Origin: Medicago truncatula
Lineage: Eukaryota > Streptophyta > Magnoliopsida > Fabales > Fabaceae
Direction of reading: 5' to 3'
NCBI RefSeq assembly: GCF_003473485.1
Contig: NC_053048.1
Span: forward strand, 48,791,755 to 48,855,754
Length of the DNA: 64,000 bases
The notes beneath the pieces were generated by a model. It saw only the letters and a program-made list of their open reading frames with translations, was not told the origin of the DNA and did not search any database. Of the stretch, positions 33,045-38,723 are shown in pieces. The position numbers and the translations under genes were made by a program. Each line of letters opens with the position of its first letter. The stretch's first letter is position 1.

Positions 33045-33485
33045 ATGAAGCCAATCGACGAGAAACAAGAGACGGTAACAATAAGAGCAGTGAGTCACGA
33101 CGAAGAAGGAAAAAAGAGAGTTGAAAAAACAGAACTAAACACACACAACATAGACACAATCAAACATGTGGAGAAGAAACTCATCAACAACGGTGTCCAA
33201 CGTCTGGACCGCCACCCTGTCGACGGCATAGGCATTGGCCGTGGACCGCCGAAGTCTGGTCGTGGTGGTAAGTTTACTTGGGAAGGTCCGGCTGATATGG
33301 TTGATAATATGCTTGATCCGGCGCCGGCGGCTATGGATGAGAATGATCCTAATTATGTAGACGAGGAAGATGGAGAGGATGCTGCTAAGGAGTTGATTGT
33401 TGGTGATGTTGATGTTGCTAAGGTTGGTGGGGAAAGAGATGGTGTTGCTAGAGTTGATGTTGATCCTCGTTTGGTTGCTAATTAA
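33045..33485 (+). CDS. Small acidic protein with PDCD4/MRF-like N-terminal motif
   Basis: Intronless, 146 aa. There is no signal peptide or membrane segment. The N-terminal third is charged and mostly helical-looking (VEKTELNTHNIDTIKHVEKK). The core 53-82 is RLDRHP, then GRGPPKSGRGGKFTWEGP, followed by DENDPNYVDEEDGED and an acidic Val/Asp-rich tail. The order Arg/Asp-rich, GGxGKxxW, then DPNY in an acidic context resembles the disordered region just before the MA3 domains of PDCD4 and plant MRF translation regulators, but no MA3 domain is present. Function unknown; an RNA- or translation-linked role is only inference. A TATA box and two ABRE-like sites precede it and the start is the first ATG after them, so it looks expressed and ABA-regulated. 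Confidence 0.82.
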   Translation: MKPIDEKQETVTIRAVSHDEEGKKRVEKTELNTHNIDTIKHVEKKLINNGVQRLDRHPVDGIGIGRGPPKSGRGGKFTWEGPADMVDNMLDPAPAAMDENDPNYVDEEDGEDAAKELIVGDVDVAKVGGERDGVARVDVDPRLVAN

Positions 33486-34820: not shown

Positions 34821-34889
34821 TAATATAATGAGAATTGTTGTTCCCACATATAGTATGGTTGTGCCACACGAGTAAAATACGAAAATGCC

Positions 34890-34945
34890 CTTCGGCAGTT
34901 AACTACCGAAGTTTGTAGTGAACCGGCGGCAGCTTACTACCGAGG
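34890..34945. repeat. Left subterminal palindromes of the 34830 element
   Basis: CTTCGGCAGTTAACTACCGA and then CGGCGGCAGCTTACTACCGA: near-palindromic units of about 20-22 bp built on CGG(C/T)AG-TAACT-(A/G)CCG. Confidence 0.8.
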
Positions 34946-35730
34946 AAAACTGAACATAACCAGAACGCAGAAACTCAGTTTTCCAGTATTGCTTCATTCT
35001 TCAAAATCATTCCAAACCATCCAACTTCTTCAAATTCGATTTTTCAGCAAAATCAAGTGCATCATCTCCATTTAATCACAAGTAAGTATCTTGACTCATT
35101 GTTTATCATAATGTTAGTTTGGGTAGGTTTTTTTTTTAAAAAAAATGGTAGTTTTCATGTGGTTAGAGTTGATGTAGCTGAATTGAATTTTTTATGAGTG
35201 CATGTAGTTTATAATTGAATGTAGTTGGTTTAATTGATGATTGAATGATGTTAGGGTATAATGTGGTTTTGAATGGTGGCAAAATAACACATTTTGAGTA
35301 TGTTTGATACTTTGCACACAAAGTGTTTGATAAAATGTGTCAATGACAATTTTATTGATTATTTAGTTAGTTTAGGTATTGGATACGATCTTGATTGTAA
35401 TTCGAAAACGTGTATGTTGAATTAAGTTGAATGCATATTGAAAAAGTGTATATTGAATTAGGTTGAATGTGTATATTGAATTATGTTTAGTTTAGGTTGA
35501 ATGTGTATGATAATGCATTTGATTTTTTGCGTTTGAATATTAATGATAATGTGTATGATAATGTTTAGGTTCAATCAATGTCTTTATTTTGGTAAAGTGG
35601 TTTAATGTGAAAGCGGTTATGTTTAGGTTATGTTTAGGTTGAATGTGAAAGTGTAGGTTTTGTTTAGGTTTACTGTTTGTTGATAAAGTGGTTGAATGAT
35701 ATTAATTTTTATTTTTTATTTTTTGTAGAT

Positions 35731-38209
35731 ATGGCCGATCAGGACCCCATTGATCCATCGAAGATGATTGGTGGTAGGCGTGCCATGACTCAGAGCCACC
35801 GCAGGGAGAGACAGAGTGGCCACATCCCAAAGAGGGGTAGAGGTCGGAGGGGAGATGGCTCAGGAAGCTCTCAGGCTACACAGCCTGAGGAGTCACAGGT
35901 TGTTGACCCGTCACAGCCTGTTGACCAGACTGGGGTGGAGTACCTGAACTATCAGGATCAGGTACATCATGATGTGACGGATGGTGGATATGAGCAGGAT
36001 GCAGGAGACGAGGATGACATTGCAGCAGCTGCTGCACCGGAGGTGTTACCTACGGCCCTCCCTTTCCTGGTGGACCGGCTGACTTGTCCTTGCTCCACTC
36101 TTATGCCGGTCATGTGGCGTTGCCACTCTGGTATAATTCAAATAATGTAAGTGTATTTTTTTTTAATTGTTTTTTCTTTATGTTAAAATATTTTCTTTAA
36201 TTTAAATGTGTGTTTGTTTAATTATTATATCCACTTTTATATGTGTTTTTTTTAATTGGTTTTTCTTTATGTTAAAATATTTTCTTTAATTTAAATGTGT
36301 GTTTGTTTAATTATTAAATCCACTTTTATATGTGTTTTTTTAATTGGTTTTTCTTTATGTTAAAATATTTTCTTTAAATGTGTGTTTGTTTTTATTATTA
36401 TATCCACCTCTATATGTGTTTTTTTTAATTCTTTTTCTTTATGTTTAATTATTTTCTTTAAATGTGTGTTTGTTTTAATTATTATATACATTGTTATATG
36501 TTTATTTTTTTAATTCTATTTTTTAGGTTTAATTGTTTTGTTTATATGTGTTTTTAATTATTATATACACTGTTATACATTGTTATGTGTTTTTATGTTT
36601 AATTATTATATCCATATTTTTTTTTCTATTATTTCAGGTTCGTAAGACCCGCGTGCTTAAACCGATTAATCATGGGGCGAAGATTCTCACTCTCGGACGC
36701 CCTAACGGGAATGAAAATTGGTTTTGGGATGCGCTTCAGCAGAGCGGGCTACATGATTTGGTCTACTTGGGGTACTCCACCGTGCCTCATGCCCTGCTGC
36801 TTACTTTATGCGAGAGGTGGCATCCGGAGACCAGCACCTTCCACATGCCGATGGGGGAGATGACTGTGACATTGGATGATGTCGCATGTCTCACGCATCT
36901 TCCTATTGAGGGGCGGATGTTGGACCATGGGAAGAAGATGCCCAAGCATGAGGGAGCGGCACTGCTGATGACGTATCTGGGTGTGGCCCAGCATGAGGCT
37001 GAGAAGATCTGCAACCATGAGTACGGTGGGTACATTAGCTACCCCAGGCTGAGGGACTTCTATACCTGGTACCTTGGTAGGGCCAACGTATTGGCGGGTA
37101 CGGAGGATCTTGAGGAGGTTGAGGAGCTGGAGAGGGTCAGGACATACTGCGTCCGGTGTTACCTTCTGTACTTGGTCGGATGCTTGTTGTTTGGCGATAG
37201 AAGCAACAAGCGCATCGAGCTGATATATTTGACGACCGTGGCGGACGGCTACGCAGGGATGCGTAATTATTCCTGGGGAGCTATGACCCTCGCCTACTTA
37301 TACGGCGAGTTGGCGGATGCATGTAGGCCTGGACACAGAGCGCTTGGGGGGAGCGTGACACTGCTCACTGTAAGAAAACTGAAATTTTATATTTATGTTA
37401 ACTTTATTTTTTTGTGAACTTTTAATTTTTTGTTATATTTTTCCGTGCGTAATAATTTATAAATGTTATTTGTTTGGTTTGTGCAGGCATGGTTTTTGGC
37501 GCATTTTCCAGGGTTTTTCAGTGTTGATCTCAACACTGACTACCTGGAAAACTATCCGGTTGCAGCGAGGTGGAAGCTCCAGAAGGGTCATGGGGAGGGG
37601 ATCACGTATCGGTCACTGCTCGATCGTATACAGTTAGATGATGTATGCTGGAGGCCGTACGAGGAGCACAGAGAGATCCATGACTTCGAGGAGGTTTTCT
37701 GGTATTCTGGATGGATTATGTGCGGCGTCCGTAGGGTGTACCGTCACTTGCCCGAGAGGGTTTTGAGGCAGTACGGATACGTGCAGACCATCCCCAGACA
37801 TCCGACTGATGTTAGGGACCTCCCCCCGCCTTCCATTGTGCAGATGTTCGTCGACTTCCGCACTCACACGCTTAAGGCGGACGCTCGGGGTGAGCAGGCA
37901 GGAGAGGATACATGGCGGGTGGCGGATGGCTATGTCCTGTGGTACACTAGGGTGTCTCACCCTCAGATCTTGCCACCTATTCCAGGAGATCTTCCGAGGC
38001 CTGCAAATGAAGAGCAGATCATTGCAGAGCAGTGACAGCGGTATGAGGCGAGAAGCTCGCCTGATACCTGTGACATGGTTAGTGGCGCTGTTGCCTACGC
38101 TGATGCGCAGTTAGGCCAGGAGGAGGTCATGAGCATGACCCCTCAGCAGTGGTTTGAGGCCATGACCCATATGAGGGAGCAGATCGCGCTGATTTTGACC
38201 AGGAGGTGA
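35731..38209 (+). pseudogene. Plant mobile domain (PMD, MAIN-like) gene inside the Mutator-type element
   Basis: Exons 35731-36146, 36638-37369 and 37487-38035 join at GTAAGT/TTTCAG and GTAAGA/GTGCAG. Exon 1 starts MADQDPIDPSK, then an Arg/Gly-rich basic stretch and an acidic, Gln-rich linker. The conserved N-terminal PMD text PFPGGPADLSLLHSYAGHVA is in a different frame from the upstream part, so about one base is missing near 36036-36042. Exon 2 is the PMD core (WFWDALQQSGLHDL, LLLTLCERWHPETSTFHMP, GEMTVTLDDVACLTHLPIEG). Exon 3 continues with HFPGFFS and the WY/RPYEEHRE blocks. A TGA at 38033 is followed by 57 more in-frame codons (MTPQQWFEAMTHMREQI) to TGA at 38207, so it is probably a premature stop. 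MAIN and MAIL1 in Arabidopsis act in transposon silencing and meristem maintenance; PMD copies also live inside transposons, as here. Confidence 0.82.
36150..36525 (+). repeat. Tandem repeat in intron 1 of the PMD gene
   Basis: About four to five imperfect copies of an 80-90 bp unit containing TTCTTTATGTTAAAATATTT, TTAAATGTGTGTTTGTTT and ATTATATCCACTTTTATATG. Later units are shortened. Confidence 0.85.
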
Positions 38210-38532
38210 GCCCAGAGGCCGAGGAGGAGGCACCATCATCAGGATCAGGACCAGTAGTACTATTTTCCTTTTTTAGGACTTATTTTTTAGTTTTAGTCTT
38301 TTGATGACATTGAGTTATGTATATTTGTATATTTGTATATTTCTACTTTGATGACATTATTTTTAATTTCATGGGCTTTTTTTACTTTGTTTAATGTACA
38401 AAAATGTTGGTTTAATTAAGTTGTGTATTTGCACCAATATTTATTTGTTATTTGAACTGTTATGATTGATTTTAAAACTTTGTGTAAAAATACTGTTAGA
38501 ATGATTTTGAAATGTTTTTTAGTTGAAGATTT

Positions 38533-38655
38533 CCTCGGTAGTTAACTACCGAAATTGTTTAAGTTCAGATTTCCTCGGCAGTTAACTTCCGAGGTTTTCC
38601 TCGGCAGTTAACTGCCGCCGGTTTCCTAAAAACTTCGGTAGCAAACTGCCGAAGG
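38533..38655. repeat. Right subterminal palindromes of the 34830 element
   Basis: Four units: CTCGGTAGTTAACTACCGAA (38535-38554), CTCGGCAGTTAACTTCCGAG, CTCGGCAGTTAACTGCCGCC and CTTCGGTAGCAAACTGCCGA, spaced 20-40 bp apart. The first contains an 18-bp perfect palindrome. Confidence 0.85.
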
Positions 38656-38723
38656 ACATTTTCGTATTTTACTCGTGTGGCACAGCCACACAACATGTGG
38701 GAATAGCAATTCTCTAATATAAT

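Follow-up and report, generated by a model that had tools for sequence, protein, structure and literature searches.

The closest described systems are Mutator-like elements (MULEs) that carry a plant mobile domain (PMD) gene, and the survey of MULE clades in which antisense PMD genes are tabulated is reportedly the work of Dupeyron. In the passages of their paper on transposons, Ikeda et al. (2017; PMC5418596) place PMD in Gypsy elements as well as in one MULE of rice, report that MULEs captured PMD-C twice, as fusions in grasses and Amborella, and suggest an anti-silencing function; that transposon-borne PMD serves the transposon has been a suggestion in print since that year. According to the relevant text of Nicolau (2020; PMC7156037), eudicot PMD-C is mainly genic, and a passage of PMC8616336 treats TE-made PMD as a possible means of counter-silencing. 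In passages of PMC6446971 that leave the abbreviation "PMD" unexpanded, some MULE clades have an antisense PMD in the majority of their members, and in further clades it occurs often or sometimes. Table 1 of that paper gives PMD antisense to the transposase for MUDR, MUDRAVI2, MDR, MULE-Monocots and MULE-Solanaceae_1, and its text places PMD also in VANDAL and MuDR-9_OS.

From these portions of the literature, PMD genes in MULEs, including genes antisense to the transposase, are already in print (PMC5418596, PMC6446971), as is the counter-silencing idea for transposon-borne PMD (PMC5418596, PMC8616336). What the present analysis adds is a transposase-less PMD form in Medicago, with ends common to a transposase partner and with long-term constraint on the protein. 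Among the open-licence papers listed for PMD in connection with Mutator, MuDR, MULEs, legumes or Medicago, none names a transposase-less PMD MULE family in its title or abstract opening. In a model legume, a high-copy family whose PMD gene stands alone and is clearly constrained between subfamilies, and whose transposase sits in a separate partner, makes the question of whether PMD serves the element directly testable, because PMD can be expressed without transposase and the silencing of its own family can be measured.

A Mutator-type element with PMD as its only gene

The window is the whole stretch of 64,000 nt of Medicago truncatula DNA that was analysed. Positions 34821-38723 form a complete Mutator-type element in which PMD is the sole gene and transposase is absent, as an earlier note on this DNA had recognized from the terminal inverted repeats (TIRs), the perfect 9-bp duplication, the three exons and the lack of a transposase ORF. 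The note was right that the TIRs match; the length of 80 bp that it gave for them is too short, both arms being 121 nt long and 88% complementary when compared with each other (left, + strand, 34830-34950; right, - strand, 38594-38714). The left arm, which recurs genome-wide, contains a subterminal palindromic motif. The target-site duplication TAATATAAT at 34821-34829 is repeated without a flaw at 38715-38723. The window element has the long TIRs and the target-site duplication of 8-11 bp by which MULEs are defined; a further hallmark, a MULE-type transposase carried either by the element itself or by a relative that shares its ends, is found in the related elements L042 and L054 and not in the window element, where the PMD exons are the only ORFs of at least 120 aa. 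Among eight elements for which both ends were read, the duplication was perfect in five and agreed at 8 of 9 bases in L039 and L043, while the 5 of 9 bases at L048 amount to none. When the empty site of the window element was sought in the genome, nothing was found apart from the two flanks of the element itself and a piece of 42 bp. At 33045-33485, some 1.3 kb upstream, lies an ORF of 146 aa that is possibly a host gene and had no Pfam match at E values up to 0.1.

The PMD gene lies on the + strand. Exon 1 (35731-36146, 416 nt) is shifted in frame near its 3' part and is followed by intron 1 (36147-36637); exon 2 (36638-37369) is open; intron 2 (37370-37486, 117 nt) begins with GT and ends with AG; and exon 3 (37487-38206) contains a TGA at 38033-38035, after which it is open to about 38206. 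Exons 2 and 3 each matched the Pfam PMD family PF10536, at 5.2e-28 (98.7 bits) and 1.4e-13 (51.2 bits) respectively, against a curated cut-off of 34.9 bits. Exon 1 had no Pfam match, and a PDB search with exon 2 found no relative. Intron 1 holds a tandem array at 36152-36604, with about five units of some 84-89 bp. Over ten copies (the window, L039, L041, L043, L045-L048, L053 and L054) the array of 84-89 bp units ranges from 2.2 to 5.5 units, a variation reminiscent of the VANC target repeats.

Comparison with other young copies confirmed both lesions of what the earlier note had described as a mildly broken gene, with one frameshift and one early stop. Exon 1 is 438 nt long, a multiple of three, in seven of the nine other young copies, compared to 416 nt in the window; within these seven, the 5' part is displaced by an insertion in L047 and a stop is contained in L053. 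The two others have an exon 1 of 429 nt (L046) or one broken up by an insertion (L045). Exon 3, which has a stop in the window, contains none in six of the nine, one of which (L048) has a frame break there. None of the ten young copies read is fully open in all three exons. The window copy is decaying, and the full protein is probably not made from it.

Related elements and the transposase partner

The earlier note had proposed a genome search for the TIR and the genes inside it, and neither of the results that it said would point to a one-off capture was seen in the 430-Mb assembly of 42 contigs, whose matches lie mostly on eight of these. The TIR core, with at most two mismatches, was found at 582 sites (283 + 299), compared to none for a reversed control pattern, which excludes TIRs arising by chance. 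At the best 40 TIR matches, PMD pointed inward in the same orientation in 32, the start of exon 2 lying mostly about 1.7 kb in; the other eight comprised three with transposase, one with PMD in the opposite orientation and four with neither gene, although one of these four (L040) retains a remnant of PMD exon 1. PMD exon 2 itself was found, in full or in part, at no fewer than 150 places (the best 150 of 949 candidates). An exact TIR core stood beside 30 of the 71 PMD places on contigs C1-C4, and on both sides in 14, as counted from the first 100 exact cores, which span C1 to 24.5 Mb of C4; in a 600-bp slot, chance would account for about 0.03 of the 71.

PMD-only elements fall into a short class resembling the window element, with the right TIR core about 2.0-2.4 kb past the start of exon 2, and a long class in which this distance is mostly about 4 to 4.5 kb. 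Several elements of the long class have, directly inside their right end, a segment shared with L054. For four diverged copies the 5' side was fetched, and the TIR was at its expected position in three, the fourth having the element body only. Thirty other PMD loci were at best about 30% identical to the element gene over most of exon 2. Seventeen PMD matches are clustered within 0.24 Mb at C3:23.03-23.27 Mb, and for 13 the open frame is at least 600 aa long; the loci of this cluster (L009-L012, L014, L016-L019, L022, L023, L025, L026, L029, L030 and L032) are only distant relatives of the element gene. Another PMD class (L033 and L035-L038) is spread over several contigs and has about 30% identity to exon 2 of the element.

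Some elements with the same TIRs carry a transposase. L042, which is bounded by these TIRs and a perfect duplication, lacks PMD and has an ORF of 836 aa that matches the MULE transposase domain (PF10551, 1.4e-26). Its transposase ORF was found at 54 or more places in the genome (the best 54 of 1599 candidates); this count and that for PMD are both lower bounds, from which no ratio of PMD to transposase copies can be derived. L054 is a complete element of 8.8 kb with TIRs at both ends and two perfect copies of the duplication AAAATTTTA. It contains a transposase on the + strand, which matches the L042 ORF at 96% with three stops in the match, and a PMD gene on the - strand, so that the two genes are convergent. 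The combination of both genes on opposite strands of one element, as in MULEs with antisense PMD, is therefore found in L054, whereas the window element is without transposase. With L054, three forms share the same TIRs, namely PMD alone, transposase alone and both genes convergent, and in each form a perfect 9-bp duplication flanks one element or more. The earlier note, which was correct about the element and its mildly broken gene, had missed this partner family, in which a transposase lies between the same TIRs.

At the N-terminus of the L052 transposase, AFT scored above the cut-off (1.8e-7) and FAR1 below it (2.2e-5). All four transposase C-termini scanned (L042, L051, L053 and L054) gave a sub-threshold match to OTU (E 0.013-0.048). 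An OTU-protease-like stretch follows the MULE domain in these elements (L051:1501-4107, L042:4742-7249, and also L053 and L054), reading DGHCGFRA ... NHFVLI in L051, where we take DGHCGFRA to be the OTU catalytic box.

Transposase and PMD are convergent within 8 kb at six loci, of which L054 alone was shown to be complete. The ends of four other such loci were sought in eight narrow stretches, which yielded a transposase-side TIR at the C5 locus, the two known TIRs at those on C4 and C1, and nothing more, although in stretches so narrow the lack of further ends carries little weight. The two halves of L054 are joined by some 70 bp of sequence similar to the inner TIR, and at loci on C4, C1 and C2 the same two segments are separated by 70, 88 and 96 bp. 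We interpret L054 as two right ends that became fused and later moved as a unit; the alternative, an ancestral two-gene element, gains weight from the entries in Table 1 of PMC6446971. The right flank of L054 lies in a repeat, and among the matches listed in a search for its empty site no place spans the whole join. At C2:5391153-5398540, an element with the transposase and one with PMD only are neighbours of like orientation, and some 20 bp separate their TIR matches; such a pair is a possible precursor of the composite elements.

Selection on the element-borne PMD gene

We compared the window gene with 12 diverged copies (dS 0.15-0.67) and obtained dN/dS values of 0.20-0.35. Under a null matched to the substitution spectrum the means were 0.65-0.79, and for all 12 copies none of 200 shuffles was as low. 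These values, far under the null, indicate that the PMD protein was maintained. A potential concern with the diverged copies is that an open exon 2 was the basis of their choice, which could itself lower dN/dS. Exon 3, which played no part in that choice, served as the region for a recheck: with exon 3 alone, at most 2 of 200 shuffles were as low in 10 of the 12 copies, the exceptions being L063 (10 of 200) and L061 (52 of 200), and the choice of copies was rejected as the source of the low ratios. The PMD protein has thus been under purifying selection between subfamilies.

Close copies gave a different picture. Against nine young copies, dN/dS ranged from 0.29 to 0.93 and was clearly below the null only for L046 (0 of 200); 18 of 200 shuffles were as low for L045 and 31 to 118 for the remainder, the upper limit being L047, whose ratio of 0.93 is indistinguishable from the null. 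Four close pairs among the diverged copies had dN/dS of 0.49-0.75, with 36, 48, 95 and 10 of 200 shuffles as low. Pooled over young copies, pN/pS was 0.49 for PMD (10 copies) compared to 0.43 for transposase (6 copies, by a simpler counting). Close copies are therefore mostly not distinguishable from neutral decay. The earlier note had proposed dN/dS as a check on the protein, and the ratio is far below 1 between subfamilies but among close copies mostly cannot be told from neutral. The overall pattern is that of a gene kept in active lineages, with each inserted copy decaying.

Interpretation and comparison with known systems

We consider it likely that the window element is a non-autonomous member of a two-partner MULE family with common TIRs, in which PMD-only members coexist with transposase-bearing ones and PMD is an accessory gene serving the element. 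The transposase made by the partner would bind the common TIRs and move the PMD-only copies in trans, a mobilization scheme that the shared ends render very probable. A long-term function of the element-borne PMD is, with equally strong confidence, predicted from the constraint between subfamilies. The likeliest such function would be counter-silencing, with the PMD protein disrupting or imitating the silencing pathway of the host PMD proteins (MAIN/MAIL1) and thereby keeping the family expressed. Interference with silencing was also raised in the earlier note, although we advance this putative role only tentatively and with rather less than even confidence. A more elaborate version, which we regard as improbable, would split the functions between transposase elements with a deubiquitinase-like tail and PMD-only elements that counter host silencing for all copies with shared ends and persist as selected, useful members; the intron 1 array may then be the address read by the protein, as in VANC systems.

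The most serious competitor, to which we give not quite an even chance, is that PMD-only elements arise passively, by deletion from elements with both genes, with selection acting only beside the transposase and neutral decay thereafter. The dN/dS ratios of the four close diverged pairs, the broken state of all ten young copies read and the antisense PMD tabulated for several MULE clades (Table 1 of PMC6446971) all agree with such an origin. It fits less well with the copy at C2:46056049, which has 87% identity in exon 2 and, at about 3.7 kb (some 0.5 kb of it unread), was already too short for a transposase, or with the L054 junction, which looks like two fused right ends. The ends themselves provide weak evidence in the same direction: two 7-mers of five transposase-left ends, expected after a simple internal deletion, occur in none of 22 PMD right ends, though 8 of the 22 are one base off a transposase-left 7-mer, and 6 of the 22 have a 7-mer found in 11 of 13 transposase right ends. 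Selection on the protein could also reflect help in transposition, as proposed for maize mudrB, rather than anti-silencing, an explanation we consider rather unlikely. MuDR has a layout of two convergent genes, and PMD is likewise the second gene of L054, convergent with the transposase; to our knowledge, neither nuclease nor DNA-binding activity has been described for PMD. The relevant part of PMC6446971 states that mudrB is apparently needed for integration, whereas the function of PMD is called unknown in passages of PMC7156037 and PMC8616336.

The two remaining explanations place the origin of the gene in the host. Plant genomes are rich in Pack-MULEs, as noted in PMC6446971, and the earlier note had considered that PMD might be a captured passenger. 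As a one-off capture of a host gene fragment this is ruled out by the recurrence of PMD on the same side within the same TIRs, at a recurrent position relative to the TIR among the many exon 2 places, and by the diverged copies that have the same TIR and show constraint between subfamilies; a Pack-MULE, by definition a host fragment without long-term coding function, is hardly credible here. Alternatively, the low dN/dS might reflect selection on host genes captured several times and not on element copies. Host PMD genes do exist, and some are described as constrained in the text of PMC7156037, but the element body seen in the window is present in all four diverged copies with fetched 5' sides, together with the TIR in three, and the 30 other PMD loci compared reach no more than about 30% identity across most of exon 2. 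Repeated capture is thus highly improbable.

The proposed two-partner family with PMD as an accessory gene can be set beside several known systems, as far as the relevant parts of the respective papers describe them. The MULE clades with antisense PMD (PMC6446971) resemble L054 in their 9-bp duplications, long TIRs, and transposase with a separate PMD gene on the opposite strand, and differ in that the window form is without transposase; in addition, stretches of AFT/FAR1 type and others weakly like OTU occur in the partner transposase, whereas among plant groups the table of that paper assigns FAR1 to Jittery and Hop and not to those with PMD. The PMD-C fusions of grasses and Amborella (PMC5418596) likewise place a PMD gene in a MULE, and the anti-silencing idea is put forward in that paper, but there PMD is fused to the transposase, whereas here, in the eudicot Medicago truncatula, it is a stand-alone, spliced gene. 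MuTAnT, also from M. truncatula (PMC4486113), is a MULE family with a putative autonomous member and many non-autonomous ones; it differs in its single five-exon transposase gene, its TA-microsatellite targets and its TIR mask, and PMD is not mentioned in the available text of that report. The Kaonashi/ULP1 MULEs (PMC13317346) have similarly retained a host-related gene for long, in that case one with a protease domain in non-TIR elements. Finally, VANDAL21/Hiun with VANC (PMC5735166, PMC10398659) combines, like the family described here, an accessory gene in a MULE with copy-variable tandem repeats in introns; VANC is a different protein whose anti-silencing activity was established by experiment (PMC5735166), whereas that of the element-borne PMD is putative.
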